64,000 nt of DNA from Opitutia bacterium. Lineage in GTDB: Bacteria; Verrucomicrobiota; Verrucomicrobiia; Opitutales; Opitutaceae. The position numbers and the translations under genes were made by a program. The notes below the pieces were generated by a model. The model was not told the origin of the DNA, did not search any database, and was given only the letters and a program-made list of their open reading frames with translations. The stretch covers positions 620,001 through 684,000 of the forward strand of contig JACRHT010000016.1 in the NCBI GenBank assembly GCA_016217545.1, in the 5' to 3' direction. Of the stretch, positions 26,238 through 30,801 are shown piece by piece (positions within the stretch are counted from its first letter, which is position 1; the number at the start of each line of letters is the position of its first letter).

Positions 26238-26948
26238 CTAAGCTCCCGCCTGCGTCTCGACCCAACGCACGGCGTGGCGAACGAGAGCGGTGCCGTCGGA
26301 GATGCCGAGCTTGCCCTTGATGTTCGCGCGGTGGACGTCGACGGTCTTGGTGCTGAGGTGCAACTGCGCCGCGATCTCGTGCGTGCCCTTGCCTTGGCCA
26401 ATCAATTGGAAAACCTCGAACTCGCGGTCGGTGAGCTTCGCGATCGGGGAGCTGGACTGGCGGGGCTGTCCGCCGTGGAGGTTTTCCAGCAAGCGCGCCG
26501 AGAGCCGCTGGCTGACATAGATCTCGCCCCGCAACACCTGACGGAGCGCCGCCAGCAGCGCCTCGCCGCCGGCCTCCTTCATGATGTAGCCGCGTGCGCC
26601 CGCGCGGAGCATGCGCTCGGCGTAGACAAGTTCGTCGTGCATCGAGATCACGAGGACGGGCAGGCCCGGATGTAGCGCGTGGAGGTCCTTGATGAACTCC
26701 GCGCCGCTGCGTCCGGGCATCGTGATGTCGCTTAAGACCAGATCGGGCCGCACGCGCGGCATCGCTTGCAATGCTTCCGCGGGATTGCCCGCCTCGCCCG
26801 CGACCACCATGTCGGGCTGCCGGTCGATCAACGCACCCAAACCGGCGCGCATGAACGGATGGTCGTCGACGACGAGGATGCGTTTGCGTTCGCTCGCGGG
26901 AGCAGTCGCCGCGGGAGGCGGAGGAGAGTTCTTGCGCGGCGCTTTCAT
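26238..26948 (-). CDS. NarL/FixJ-type response regulator
   Basis: A 236-residue two-domain response regulator. The receiver domain (about 22-140) has the acidic pair DD28-29, the phospho-acceptor Asp74 (VLSDIT) and Lys124. The C-terminal LuxR/GerE HTH (about 168-228: LTDREFEVFQLIGQGKGTHEIAAQLHLSTKTVDVHRANIKGKLG) binds DNA after phosphorylation. It overlaps the upstream sensor kinase by ATGA (26945-26948), so the HisKA_3 kinase of the same operon is its natural partner. It is the output end of the four-gene phosphorelay. A proline-rich N-terminal extension (1-20) is unusual. Confidence 0.92.
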   Translation of the reverse strand: MKAPRKNSPPPPAATAPASERKRILVVDDHPFMRAGLGALIDRQPDMVVAGEAGNPAEALQAMPRVRPDLVLSDITMPGRSGAEFIKDLHALHPGLPVLVISMHDELVYAERMLRAGARGYIMKEAGGEALLAALRQVLRGEIYVSQRLSARLLENLHGGQPRQSSSPIAKLTDREFEVFQLIGQGKGTHEIAAQLHLSTKTVDVHRANIKGKLGISDGTALVRHAVRWVETQAGA

Positions 26949-28009
26949 CGCTGGGTCGGCCAGAGACAGGAAATCGCCGTGCCGCCGGCCCGGGAGCGCT
27001 TCACTATGAGTTCCGCGCCGATCAAACTCGCGCGGTGGCGCATGAGACCCAAACCGGTCCCGTGCTTTTCGGCGCCTTCGCGTAGACCGACGCCGTCGTC
27101 GGCGATCTCCAACGCGATCCGCTCCGTGCGCCGCACGAGGCTCACGCGGATCGTCTTGGCCTGCGCGTGGCGCACCGCGTTGTTCACGGCTTCCTGCGCG
27201 ATGCGGTAGAGGTGGCCGGCCACGCGCACATCCTCCACCTCGACCGGCTTCTCCGTCAGGAACGCACAGTAGACCCGACCAAGCGCGTTCGTGCGTTCCG
27301 CCAACGCCACCAATCCGTGGTGCAACGCTTCGGGCCCCTGCCCGATCGGCACGAGACCGCGCGCGAGAAAGCGGGTCTGCGCAATTGCCTCGCGCAGCAT
27401 GCCGCTCATTTGGTCGAGGCGCGTCGAAACCATCGGATGAGTGAAGGCCGTGTCCTCCTTCAAAGCGGTGCACATCAGCTCCAGGGCGGTGAGGAGTTGC
27501 CCGAGGCCATCGTGAAGGTCGGCCCCGATCGACAACCGCTCGCGTTCGCTGGCGGCCAGCACTTCCGCCTCGAGGCGCACATGCTCGGCGCGGGCGGCGG
27601 CGAGGGCGCGATCGCGCGCCACAGAATCGAGCGCACGCTGCGCCACGGCTGGCAGCAGGTCGAGCAGCGCCATGTCCTTCATCACGTAATCGAGCGCGCC
27701 GTGTTTCATCACCTCCACGGCGGATTTTTCATCGCCCTGGCCGGTCACGACCACGAAAGGCACACCAAGCCCCGTGGCGCTGTATTTGTTCAGCAGTCCG
27801 ACGCCCTCGGCGTCACTCAACTTCAGGTCGAGCAACAGCAGATCGTGCGGCTCAGCTTGGAGAATCTCGAACGCCTGGCGGCAACTGGTGGCGGTGCCGA
27901 CATCGTGACCTTCGGCACGCAACGCCTCGGCCATGAGAATCAGCAGTCCTTCGTCGTCGTCGACGACGAGGATGCGCGCGGGTCCAGAGCCGTGGGAACT
28001 GGGACTCAC
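26945..28009 (-). CDS. Receiver-HisKA_3 hybrid histidine kinase
   Basis: A 354-residue soluble protein in reverse hybrid order. A receiver domain (about 12-128; acidic D17-19, phospho-Asp61, Lys111) comes first, then a NarX/DegS-type HisKA_3 dimerisation domain with LHDGLGQLL (His166) and an HATPase domain (N-box QEAVNNAVRHA near 272-282, G1 DDGVGL near 304, G2 HGTGLGL near 316). An N-terminal receiver before a kinase lets phosphate input from another kinase tune autokinase activity. The GTG start at 28009 overlaps the preceding regulator stop (GTGA). The kinase should phosphorylate the NarL-type regulator downstream, while its receiver could accept phosphate from the PAS kinase upstream. Confidence 0.9.
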   Translation of the reverse strand: MSPSSHGSGPARILVVDDDEGLLILMAEALRAEGHDVGTATSCRQAFEILQAEPHDLLLLDLKLSDAEGVGLLNKYSATGLGVPFVVVTGQGDEKSAVEVMKHGALDYVMKDMALLDLLPAVAQRALDSVARDRALAAARAEHVRLEAEVLAASERERLSIGADLHDGLGQLLTALELMCTALKEDTAFTHPMVSTRLDQMSGMLREAIAQTRFLARGLVPIGQGPEALHHGLVALAERTNALGRVYCAFLTEKPVEVEDVRVAGHLYRIAQEAVNNAVRHAQAKTIRVSLVRRTERIALEIADDGVGLREGAEKHGTGLGLMRHRASLIGAELIVKRSRAGGTAISCLWPTQR

Positions 28010-28449
28010 TTGCTCGCAACCGGCGGCACGAGCAGGAGCATCACAAACATGCCCAGCCGACGGATCGCCTCGGTGAACTTGTCGTAATCGACGGGTTTCT
28101 GGATGTAGACGCTGCAACCGAGCTGGTGGCAGCGCTCCACTTCGCGGGAATCGTCGGTGGTCGTCAGCATGATCACCGGCAGCTTGCGGAGTTCCGCGTC
28201 GGCCTTCAGGCGACGCAGCACCTCGATGCCGTCGACCTTGGGCATGCGAATGTCGAGCAGCACGAGGTAAGTGCCATCGTGACCGCGCACGACATTGCCG
28301 TCCCGATCGAAGAAATAATCGAGGATCGCCTGTCCGTCGCGGAAGTGCTGGATGCGATTTTTCAGCCCCGCCATCTCGAGATTTTCGCGGATGAGGATGG
28401 CGTGACCTTCGTCGTCTTCGACGATGAGAATAGTAGGAGACTGGTTCAT
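28006..28449 (-). CDS. Single-domain response regulator, Rcp1-like
   Basis: A 147-residue stand-alone receiver. It has the acidic residues E11-D13, phospho-acceptor Asp66 in LLDIRMP, conserved Thr97 and Lys118 (QKPVD). The insertion FFDRDGNVVRGHDGTYL between strands 2 and 3 is typical of Rcp1-type regulators that serve phytochrome-like or PAS-HisKA kinases. It has no output domain, so it acts as a phosphate carrier or sink between the PAS kinase just upstream (23-base gap) and the hybrid kinase overlapping its 3' end. The C-terminus (VMLLLVPPVASK) extends a few residues past the fold. Confidence 0.92.
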   Translation of the reverse strand: MNQSPTILIVEDDEGHAILIRENLEMAGLKNRIQHFRDGQAILDYFFDRDGNVVRGHDGTYLVLLDIRMPKVDGIEVLRRLKADAELRKLPVIMLTTTDDSREVERCHQLGCSVYIQKPVDYDKFTEAIRRLGMFVMLLLVPPVASK

Positions 28450-28472
28450 GGCGTGGTCCGGCGGAGCGTGGG

Positions 28473-29702
28473 TTAGGCCGCCGGCAATGAAACGTGGAAG
28501 ATGGAACCCTTGTTCACCTCGCTCTCAACCCAAATTCTGCCGGACTGCCGTTCGAGCACGCGCTGCGCGATCGAGAGGCCGAGCCCCTCGCCCGCCGAGT
28601 CCGCCGGATTCAAGCGGTGGAAAATCTCGAAAATCTTCGCCTGATGCTCCCGCGCGATGCCGAGACCGTTGTCGGAAACCGTGTAGGTCGCGACGCCATC
28701 GGCCACGCGGCCGGAAACCTCGATCAGCAGCGGGCGCTCGGGCGCGCGGTATTTGAGCGCGTTGTCGAGCAGGTTCGCGAAGACTTGGTTGGTCTGCACG
28801 CTGTCGCCGAGGCAGCGCGGCAGGATGCCGATGCGAACCTGCGCCTTTGCCTCGTCCAACTGGAACTTCATCGCCGCCGTGATCTCCGAAAGCATCGCGT
28901 TCATGTCGAGCGGCCGGACATTTAGCACCACGCGGCCGAGCCGCGAATAGTGGAGCAGACCCGCGAGCAGCGCCTCCATCTTGGCGACGCCGGCGCTGAT
29001 GAATTTCAGCGCCTGGGGGATCGAGACATCGAGGGGTTTCCGCACCTGCTCGAGCGTGATCTTTCCATCGGTCGATTCCGCCGCGGCGGCGCGGATCTGG
29101 TCGCAGGCGCGCGTGAGCTGGCGGCTGAACCCCTGCACGTTCACGAGCGGCGAACGCAGGTCGTGCGAGACCGTATAGACGATCGCCTCCAGCTCCTTGT
29201 TCTTCTGCGCCAGGTCGGTGGCGATGCGCTGCAATTCGAGCTCGTCCGCCTTGCGCTGCGTGATGTCGGTGCGGATCGCGATGTATTGGTAGGGCTTCCC
29301 GTTGGCGTTGAGGAACGGAAAGATCGTCGTATCGACCCAGTAGAGCGAGCCGTCCTTCGCGCGATTGCGCAACTCCCCGTGCCAGACGTTGCCGTGGGCG
29401 ATCGTCGACCAGAGGTTTTTGAAAAATTCCTTCGAGTGGTAGCCCGAGTTGATGAGGCGATGGTCCTGCCCGATCAGCTCCTCCCGCGCATATTTCGAAA
29501 TCGCGCAGAATTTGTCGTTCACGTAGGTGATGCGGCCGGACGGGTCGGTGATCGCGACGATCGAGTGCTCGTCGAGCGCCGCCCGCACATCGCGCAGCTC
29601 GCGCGCGGCGTTCACGAGTTCCTCCGGGGACGAAGCCTGATCAGCGGCGAGACGCGCGATCAATTCCTCCCGACTAAGCGTGGAAAAGTCAGGTGTGGAC
29701 AC
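28473..29702 (-). CDS. Soluble PAS-domain sensor histidine kinase
   Basis: A 409-residue cytoplasmic kinase. A short N-terminal helix is followed by a PAS domain (about 40-150; Aer-like GYHSKEFFKNLW … WHGELRNRAKDGSLYWVDTTIFP), then a HisKA domain with VSHDLRSPL (His180) and an HATPase (about 270-407; N-box ANLLDNALKY, G1 DNGLGI, G2 GEGLGLSIA). There are no membrane segments. The PAS type resembles those that bind FAD or haem to sense redox or oxygen, but no ligand residue can be assigned. The start is a GTG at 29702, as no ATG precedes the PAS domain. It heads the four-gene phosphorelay operon and is divergent from the PocR-AraC regulator. Confidence 0.9.
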   Translation of the reverse strand: MSTPDFSTLSREELIARLAADQASSPEELVNAARELRDVRAALDEHSIVAITDPSGRITYVNDKFCAISKYAREELIGQDHRLINSGYHSKEFFKNLWSTIAHGNVWHGELRNRAKDGSLYWVDTTIFPFLNANGKPYQYIAIRTDITQRKADELELQRIATDLAQKNKELEAIVYTVSHDLRSPLVNVQGFSRQLTRACDQIRAAAAESTDGKITLEQVRKPLDVSIPQALKFISAGVAKMEALLAGLLHYSRLGRVVLNVRPLDMNAMLSEITAAMKFQLDEAKAQVRIGILPRCLGDSVQTNQVFANLLDNALKYRAPERPLLIEVSGRVADGVATYTVSDNGLGIAREHQAKIFEIFHRLNPADSAGEGLGLSIAQRVLERQSGRIWVESEVNKGSIFHVSLPAA

Positions 29703-29829
29703 GCCGCCAAGTTGGGTCGCTCCACGGGCGCTGGCAAGCGGAACGCCGCCGCGATCTAGGGAAATTCTTTAGTGAGTCTTGGCCTAGGTGCCAATTACGC
29801 GTCTGCGCACCTTGTGCTATTTTCAACGC

Positions 29830-30801
29830 ATGCAAGCGATCCACGCCGCTCCCGCACTGCCCTTCGTGCCCGCCACGTCCGCCCGCGACTCCGGTCGCAG
29901 CGTTGTCCAGCACCTCGAACGCGCCGCCATTTTCCAGGAATACAAGGAGGCGTTCGAAGCCACCACCGGCCTGCCGCTCGCGCTCCGCGCCACAGGCACG
30001 TTCAACTCACCGCTGCACGACTCGAAGCGCGTGAACCCGTTCTGCCAGCTCATGGCGGGCCGCAACAAGACCTGCGCGAATTGCCTCGTCGTTCAGCAAA
30101 AAGCCGAGGAAGAGGCCCGTAGCGAAGCGAAGACCTTCCAGTGCTTCGCCGGCCTCAGCGAGGCCGCCGTGCCGGTCCGCGTCGGCGAGCAGGTCCTCGG
30201 TCACCTTCAGACCGGCCAGGTCCTCCTCCACGCGCCGAGCGCCGCCGGCTTCAAAGCCCTGTCGCGCCAATTCGGCGGCGAGACCTCGCCCAAGAACGTC
30301 GAGGCGATCAAGGACGCCTACTTCGGCACCCGCGTGCTCTCGAAGTCGCAATTCGACTCCATCGTGCGCCTGCTGACCGTCTTCTCCCAGCACCTCTCCT
30401 CGATCAGCAATCAGGTCATGGTGCAGGAATCCACCGCCGAGTCGCCCGTGGTCGCGAAGGCCCGCGCCTACATCGCCGAGCATTTCAGCGGCGAGATCTC
30501 CGTCGGCGAAGTCGCCCGCGCGGTGAACATGAGCACGTTCTACTTCTGCAAGGTCTTCAAGTCGGGCACCGGCCTCACCTTCACCGACTACCTCGCGCGC
30601 CTGCGCGTCGAGTCCGTGAAGCAACAGATGCTCAACCCGCACATCCGCGTCAGCGAAGCGGCCTTCGCCGCCGGTTTCCAATCGCTCTCCCAGTTCAACC
30701 GCGTCTTCCGCCGCATCGCCGGCGAAAGCCCGAGCGACTACCGCGACCGCGTCGTCGGCAGCACGCCGCATCAAGACGAGCACGGCTCCCGCGCCGCCTG
30801 A
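29830..30801 (+). CDS. PocR-domain AraC-family regulator
   Basis: A 323-residue regulator. The N-terminal PocR ligand-binding domain (about 30-195) has a PAS-related fold with the family's cysteine set (C72, C82-x-x-C85, C105). PocR itself senses 1,2-propanediol in the pdu/cob regulon; related domains sense small hydrocarbon derivatives or redox state. The C-terminal AraC HTH pair spans about 205-310 (ISVGEVARAVNMSTFYFCKVFK … RVSEAAFAAGFQSLSQFNRVFRR). The target is unknown. Because 1,2-propanediol-type metabolites arise from fucose and rhamnose, control of the BMC genes at the window start is possible, but many Opitutaceae carry several such genes. ATG 29830 was chosen over an upstream GTG. 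Confidence 0.88.
   Translation: MQAIHAAPALPFVPATSARDSGRSVVQHLERAAIFQEYKEAFEATTGLPLALRATGTFNSPLHDSKRVNPFCQLMAGRNKTCANCLVVQQKAEEEARSEAKTFQCFAGLSEAAVPVRVGEQVLGHLQTGQVLLHAPSAAGFKALSRQFGGETSPKNVEAIKDAYFGTRVLSKSQFDSIVRLLTVFSQHLSSISNQVMVQESTAESPVVAKARAYIAEHFSGEISVGEVARAVNMSTFYFCKVFKSGTGLTFTDYLARLRVESVKQQMLNPHIRVSEAAFAAGFQSLSQFNRVFRRIAGESPSDYRDRVVGSTPHQDEHGSRAA

Follow-up and report, generated by a model that had tools for sequence, protein, structure and literature searches.

The DNA considered here is a stretch of 64,000 nucleotides (the window) from an Opitutia bacterium of the family Opitutaceae (contig JACRHT010000016.1 of a 5.09 Mb genome in 17 contigs), which carries on its reverse strand a cassette of genes for two histidine kinases, a stand-alone receiver and a NarL-type response regulator. 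Judging from their sequences, these four genes are part of a conserved five-gene regulatory unit of the Opitutaceae with kin in other Verrucomicrobiota, the fifth member being a divergent gene for a PocR-AraC regulator that is separated from the sensor kinase gene by an operator-like DNA element. The explanation that we consider best, with a probability of roughly 0.6, is a redox-response cascade in which the second kinase would be controlled by the first through its own receiver and would start afresh from ATP.

The sensor kinase HK1 (28473..29702, minus strand, 409 residues, GTG start) combines a PAS domain of the Aer/MmoS type with HisKA and HATPase_c; PAS and HATPase_c exceed the Pfam cut-offs and HisKA stays below its own (21.8 versus 26.9 bits), yet the H box is plain (SHDLRSPL, His180). 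Downstream lie REC1 (28006..28449, minus strand, 147 residues, Asp66), a stand-alone receiver whose best PDB matches are CheY/Rcp-type receivers, then HK2 (26945..28009, minus strand, 354 residues, GTG start), in which the receiver REC2 with Asp61 precedes HisKA_3 with His166 and HATPase_c, and finally the NarL-type regulator (26238..26948, minus strand, 236 residues, ATG start), a Response_reg domain with Asp74 joined to a GerE helix-turn-helix. In the respective alignments Asp61 of REC2 and Asp74 of the cassette NarL proteins are invariant. An initial annotation of this DNA had named the same four genes, their phospho-acceptor residues (Asp66, Asp61 and His166) and four-base overlaps, GTGA between REC1 and HK2 and ATGA between HK2 and NarL, all of which the open reading frames (ORFs) and the Pfam matches bear out; it had overlooked the PocR-AraC gene and the conserved DNA element, both of which belong to the unit. 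A scan for sigma-70 promoters and terminators gave no signal above shuffled sequences.

The order of the cassette is more than chance, since all four genes stand in order at 17 of the 18 loci with near-full-length HK2 matches among 115 related genomes (the window's own counted), the sole exception, L012, being without HK1 and REC1. HK2 has a match at E<=1e-60 in 57 of 252 genomes of the family, short forms (see below) among them, and in an evenly drawn sample of the phylum at E<=1e-45 in 86 of 387 genomes, where the matches listed are mostly to the kinase core alone. With 19 duplicate cores set aside, 140 different loci with an HK2 core were sorted into classes: 54 are long forms, or 55 when the window is counted, two are long forms that lack REC1, 14 are short, one is a chimera, two have a receiver but no HK1, and 67 are others; in what follows, the cassette loci are the first 73 of these plus the window (74), and the 67 others serve as controls. 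Among named assemblies, HK2 has its closest relatives at L031-L044, with 55-74% identity in the best-matching segment; the titles of these assemblies read Opitutaceae, Opitutia, Opitutae, Didemnitutus or Verrucomicrobiota. The titles of the assemblies behind L049, L050, L068 and L065, Acidobacteria, Akkermansia muciniphila and Klebsiella pneumoniae among them, seem doubtful given the kinship of their HK2 cores. A decayed form of the cassette (L200/L039/L012) has lost HK1 and REC1 and had the start of REC2 replaced, and retains the HK2 core and NarL. Counting from the start codon nearest to the preceding stop, a four-base overlap of HK2 and NarL is possible at 48 of 55 family loci. The GTGA overlap of REC1 and HK2 was rejected as a conserved coupling device, being possible at only 7 of 50.

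The fifth gene (29830..30801, plus strand) encodes a PocR sensory domain (PF10114, 87.8 bits) followed by an AraC helix-turn-helix (HTH_18, 80.5 bits), which is the definition of the PocR-AraC class; ATG 29830 is the likelier start than GTG 29788, as the latter falls inside the conserved element. Counting only loci with at least 3 kb ahead of the HK2 frame, a PocR gene, usually divergent, is present at 58 of 67 cassette loci versus 2 of 28 control loci, and four cysteines of the PocR domain are near-invariant (67-68 of 68 domains). Of the 252 family genomes, 196 have a PocR-AraC gene at E<=1e-50, and many have two or more; among the copies tested only the partner of the cassette has the element in front of it.

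How HK1, REC1, REC2 and NarL might be wired is suggested by helix alpha1 of the receivers. Over the 16 residues that follow the acidic pair, REC1 and REC2 are 45.1% identical, versus 2.6% for REC1 and NarL and 5.4% for REC2 and NarL, while the whole domains are about equally similar (30.8, 30.3 and 26.9%, in the same order); the comparison of alpha1 covers 52 of 55 cassettes, the three missed by the pattern having been examined separately. Within the family these recognition helices are almost invariant. Outside it, four of six cassettes (L070, L071, L081 and L088) have Arg at one alpha1 position and Lys/Arg at another, identically placed in REC1 and REC2, and their HK1 proteins have Glu instead of Gln at H+15, which we take to be a position of kinase specificity. 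REC1 alone is gone at L211 and L068, the latter with an apparent stump of its start, and HK1 and REC2 are kept at both. Around matches to the HK1 core elsewhere in the phylum (13 loci, L240-L252), ten encode side by side the HK1 core, REC1 and a receiver resembling REC2, and nine of these lead to outputs other than HisKA_3/NarL: the REC2-like receiver sits on a HisKA-type hybrid kinase at L240, L242, L248, L249, L250 and L251, and on a protein of 215-241 residues at L243, L245 and L246, the C-terminal part of which holds several cysteines and, in L246, the only one scanned, has no further Pfam match. The tenth, L241, is a long form with NarL; of the remainder, L252 has the HK1 core and REC1 only and two have the HK1 core only. 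From this pattern we infer that HK1 acts on both REC1 and REC2, with REC1 as a sink or buffer.

HK2 has the domain layout by which LvrB-type kinases are recognised, i.e. an N-terminal receiver with its Asp joined straight to DHp-CA and no other input domain. The published systems are cited here and below from excerpts of the respective papers. The Asp-to-His distance of 105 residues equals that of D56/H161 in LvrB (excerpt of PMC13269768), and the distance from the receiver Lys to the His is 55 in 42 of the 54 loci measured and 126-309 in the other 12; in L068, the sole long-linker HK2 scanned with Pfam, this stretch contains a PAS domain. An AlphaFold2 model of HK2 (mean predicted local distance difference test score, pLDDT, 81.8; predicted TM-score 0.48) has one predicted continuous helix from residue 115 to 187 that runs from the receiver into the DHp domain with block pLDDT values of 72-90. 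A Foldseek search with this model returned chains of LvrB (8vc9) in its top six rows (E 4.2e-16 over 379 columns, but a low TM of 0.36 and a root-mean-square deviation of 18.9) at a low sequence identity of 18-20%. The best 50 rows of a VIA-align search were mainly receiver domains and did not include LvrB, which is not evidence against a likeness. The initial annotation had two kinases act in series and gave the second a receiver of its own, a reading that is supported as far as sequence goes.

The input is probably redox-related, as that annotation had also suggested. The best PDB match of the HK1 PAS domain is MmoS (3ewk, E 4.5e-55), followed by Aer (8dik) and NifL, and H81, W98, N113 and R144, equivalent to H53, W70, N85 and R115 of Aer, are kept in 70 of 70 PAS domains. 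The list of pocket residues is that given for Aer and MmoS in the excerpt of PMC9668731, where H53, N85 and R115 are shared by both proteins. The PAS domain of HK1 appears to be a redox sensor of the flavin type.

The element between PocR and HK1 measures 41 bp (29756..29796, minus strand), has the consensus AATTGG...TCGCTAAGGGATTTCCCTAG and is built around CTAAGGGATTTCCCTAG; its palindromic core (29756..29772, no strand assigned), hereafter the box, fits CTARRGRWWWYYYYTAG within one mismatch. The spacing from AATTG to CCTAG is fixed at 36 bases in all 27 regions showing both marks, and a matrix made from these 27 finds the element in 43 of 43 divergent PocR/HK1 regions with a lowest score of 37.4, against a highest score of 3.5 among 172 shuffled or reversed controls. 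The box lies at most 350 bases ahead of the PocR domain at 46 of the 47 family loci that hold PocR, the exception being the decayed L200, which has NarL but neither HK1 nor REC1 and whose REC2 is short of its first 25 residues (no box stands before PocR at L200/L039/L012). Seven family loci have no PocR gene, and five of these genomes carry the box before a PocR gene elsewhere, in G072 on the contig of the cassette itself at a distance of about 10 kb, and also in G039, G505, G492 and G015. Two further sets of PocR upstream regions were picked among the matches listed: the box is absent from 20 of 20 regions in 19 family genomes without an HK2 match at E<=1e-60 (none above 2.6, shuffle maximum 7.8; one region, at a contig end, is only 294 bases long), and among 19 additional regions in cassette genomes it occurs in that of G015 only (0 of 18 others). 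Outside the family, the family matrix scores 15-22 before PocR at L053, L055, L064, L068, L070, L071 and L079 and 7.5-9.4 at L050, L051 and L056, compared with at most 2.6 in 38 shuffled regions and up to 17.9 in whole control loci of several kb. Because the box tracks the PocR gene of the cassette, also where this is not adjacent, and is missing from the PocR regions tested in genomes that are free of the cassette, it is probably recognised by something that the cassette encodes and that acts in trans, either NarL or PocR.

The box does not mark a genome-wide regulon, a candidate that was rejected since the core in the window is the only site of its genome within one mismatch of CTARRGRWWWYYYYTAG; the backward control pattern likewise gives one match per strand, and the count by itself proves nothing. 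Across the family the core pattern has sites in 51 of 252 genomes, and 27 of the 30 sites at L259-L288 adjoin a PocR gene. Among 16 more sites (L289-L304), L301 is a PocR/short-form locus, L298 is near another NarL-type gene, L292 and L295-L297 are near weak receiver-like frames, and the rest are near none of the gene models used. As the backward pattern gives 26 forward and 30 reverse matches in the same 252 genomes, sites away from PocR were treated as noise; the exact match beside the NarL-type regulator gene at L298 (G613:C113) is likely due to chance.

The 14 short loci lack the HK1 core, REC1 and REC2 and have the PAS domain of the cassette type and the HisKA_3 core in a single protein, joined directly in 12 of the 14; L050 has a second PAS-like stretch in between and L121 a longer stretch with no identified domain. 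NarL follows at all 14 and PocR is present at 13. On a quick tree of HK2 cores (support by the Shimodaira-Hasegawa-like approximate likelihood ratio test only, many open forks, midpoint root), the best tree requires eight switches between the long and the short state, and in three parts of the family (L212, L093 and L213/L215/L049) short or chimeric branches are embedded among long ones. In the chimera L212 one reading frame leads from the PAS domain into the latter half of REC2, and the identities to its long-form relatives are 94% (PAS), 90% (HK2 core) and 97% (NarL). The PAS domain and the His are 34 residues apart in all 54 HK1 proteins for which the distance was taken; of the 13 short proteins with such a measurement, 12 have values of 27, 34 or 41, in each case 6 modulo 7, and L050 differs; L121 gave no linker measure, HK1 of L070 and L088 has no PAS domain of the cassette type, and L082 and L083 are near copies, which leaves fewer than 12 independent short cases. 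Such heptad spacing is what a signalling helix would require. We put at about even odds the proposal that Verrucomicrobiota possess a redox circuit with a removable kinase stage, in which the block of HK1 core, REC1 and REC2 is lost or gained as a unit between PAS and HisKA_3 while sensor, output kinase, NarL, box and PocR-AraC stay together. If true, a single pathway exists in nature in a long and a short version side by side, with sensor linkers in heptad register each time.

Genes for a cbb3 oxidase (ccoN-ccoO, whole or in part) are found near 23 of 74 cassette loci versus 1 of 67 controls, on either side of the cassette and with short forms included; the sequence compared amounted to 818 kb for cassette loci, the window left aside, and 558 kb for controls. 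The two genes are fused, for instance at L206:8889-11977, at L207:3-2979 and at L256 (frames of 773 and 809 residues were scanned), and a ccoP-type gene follows in the two loci scanned, L206 and L207. Ahead of ccoN there is a short ORF, the start of which could be identified in 22 of the 23 regions. As a lead only, a second motif of the CAAGAAATGCGCA type occurs in 8 of the 23 ccoN upstream regions (L194, L201, L205, L206, L207, L215, L187 and L256) and in 2 of 43 divergent regions (L185 and L219).

In the proposed five-gene cascade, the flavin-type PAS domain would read the redox state and set the autophosphorylation of HK1, which would phosphorylate both REC1, as sink or buffer, and REC2 on HK2, two receivers with a similar surface. 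Phospho-REC2 would then switch the HisKA_3 kinase activity through the continuous signalling helix, by analogy with LvrB and NmpS, and HK2 would autophosphorylate from fresh ATP and phosphorylate NarL. NarL in turn would bind the palindromic box and control PocR-AraC and, where the two genes are divergent, HK1. The weakest step is the last, by which the module may help the cell to adapt its respiration, the operon for the cbb3 oxidase being a likely part of the response.

The initial annotation had instead envisaged a single phosphate relayed from the first protein to the last, a route from HK1 through REC1, a His donor, REC2 and the His of HK2 to NarL. The gene order is consistent with such a linear phosphorelay and much of the recognition helix is common to REC1 and REC2, but it needs a His donor between the two receivers, and Pfam finds no histidine phosphotransfer (HPt) domain in the four cassette proteins and none between the receivers; the genome does have four HPt matches elsewhere, one of them in an open frame of 144 residues. 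REC1 is missing at L211 and L068, the entire middle stage is missing at the 14 short loci, and the analogous NmpS phosphorylated NmpR only and not its own receiver (excerpt of PMC6211767). This relay is accordingly very improbable in our estimate, and a cascade restarting from ATP at HK2 fits better. A second alternative would split the cassette into separate two-component systems, HK1-REC1 as a phytochrome/Rcp-like pair and HK2-NarL with some other input to REC2. REC1 does resemble Rcp-type receivers, L252 holds the HK1 core and REC1 with no REC2-like receiver, and 12 of 54 measured HK2 proteins have the longer stretch between receiver and DHp, with PAS there in L068; against this stand the alpha1 residues common to REC1 and REC2 across cassettes, the persistence of HK1 where REC1 is lost, and the same type of PAS domain joined to HK2 in relatives, which together make two separate systems unlikely.

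Less easily dismissed, though still doubtful, is a third possibility that concerns the output: PocR-AraC might bind the box itself in an autoregulatory loop, leaving NarL to regulate something else. The box tracks PocR rather than HK1, standing before HK1 in only one (L167, G072) of six family loci without an adjacent PocR, and it was not found before ccoN. The shape of the box speaks for the other protein, in that sites of NarL/LuxR-family dimers (RcsB, BvgA) are palindromic and those of AraC-type regulators direct repeats; two equal halves suit the former better, and since the box is a clean palindrome we favour NarL as its reader. Autoregulation also sits poorly with the further PocR-AraC copies that have no box. 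The box-less L200 is a mixed case: the loss there of HK1, REC1 and the beginning of REC2 counts against autoregulation, though its NarL persists.

A number of observations weigh against the cascade with NarL as its output. Autoregulation by PocR-AraC would equally put the box before PocR; G019 keeps the cassette with neither PocR nor box nearby, a contig end stops the reading of both in G493 (L180), and no box-like site precedes PocR in the non-family short-form loci L054, L082 and L083. Of the other two non-family cassettes, L079 is of the family type in HK1, REC1 and REC2 and L241 is too divergent for a reading, and the joint change of all three in the remaining four may be one ancestral event. 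HK1, REC1 and REC2 are contiguous, so that one deletion can explain their joint loss in the short forms, which says little about wiring; for the same reason, that one deletion removes both, a test of HK1 against REC2 over independent pairs (six of six starred pairs agreed, with L180 omitted at its contig end) was dropped as evidence on wiring. The deletion in L212 is known from a single assembly. The position of R57 in Aer is Asn in 68 of 70 PAS domains, the ccoN-ccoO-like frame of the window's genome lies on another contig, unlinked to the cassette, and the 23 regions upstream of ccoN contain no box (scores of -17.8 to -42.5). The sign of control by REC2 is also ambiguous by analogy: LvrB is activated by phosphorylation of its receiver (excerpt of PMC13269768), whereas NmpS and a Rhizobium homologue are thought to be inhibited (excerpt of PMC6211767), and these precedents point both ways.

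The five-gene cascade bears on the question of why a second kinase should be placed in series. Close relatives with and without the intermediate stage make its effect on gain, speed, threshold and noise directly measurable, the box offers a ready reporter of the pathway, and the flavin-type PAS domain and the cbb3 neighbourhood provide a testable input and physiology. To our knowledge few two-component systems of Verrucomicrobiota have been characterised, and no published description of the five-gene unit or of the box was found in the open-access (PMC) literature.

The arrangement of kinases had been called unusual, an assessment that is weakened by known systems: the same four roles occur in NmpU-NmpT-NmpS-NmpR of Myxococcus xanthus, a four-component system examined by phosphotransfer, which comprises a sensor kinase, a receiver protein (a presumed phospho-sink), a receiver-kinase hybrid and an output regulator (PMC6211767), and receiver-controlled kinases have been described with LvrB (PMC13269768). 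In the Nmp system the input is of the oxygen type, NmpR also binds near its own operon, and the specificity residues of the first receiver of NmpT and the receiver of NmpS are near-identical, where those of REC1 and REC2 are alike but not near-identical. It differs in that the sensor domain of NmpU is a protoglobin and not a PAS of the flavin type, NmpT contains a pair of receivers, the published scheme gives NmpS a HisKA domain rather than HisKA_3, and NmpR is NtrC-like rather than NarL-like, and the excerpt describes neither a PocR-AraC gene nor short-circuit forms (PMC6211767). The cassette shares with it the four roles encoded together and the pattern of recognition residues, and has neither the protoglobin nor the NtrC-like output; it would appear to work like Nmp, yet we do not class it as Nmp. 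In LvrA-LvrB-LvrC of Leptospira, an upstream kinase drives the receiver-DHp-CA kinase LvrB by phosphorylating the receiver of the latter, as we propose for HK2 on the strength of its sequence; LvrB, however, phosphorylates a receiver/anti-sigma-type protein and the excerpt mentions no stand-alone receiver (PMC13269768), and it is HK2 that matches HisKA_3. PhcS-PhcR-PhcQ of Ralstonia likewise brings a sensor kinase, a protein that joins receiver and kinase, and a receiver protein together in one operon, but responds to a quorum signal, and PhcR and PhcQ are without a DNA-binding domain (PMC8578825). The PAS domains closest in sequence, those of MmoS (3ewk) and Aer (8dik), have the same pocket residues as HK1; Aer is an energy-taxis receptor (PMC9668731), while the PAS domain of the cassette would act on a kinase, of the HisKA type here and of the HisKA_3 type in relatives. 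Thus the four-role design (NmpUTSR) and the receiver-kinase class (LvrB) are already known, and PhcSRQ is a third case. RcaE-RcaF-RcaC is reportedly another system that couples a sensor kinase to a small receiver, with an HPt domain in RcaC that the cassette does not share. What appears to be new in the Opitutaceae unit are the sensor, the type of the second kinase, the output regulator, the PocR-AraC partner, the operator-like element and the natural absence of the middle stage in close relatives.

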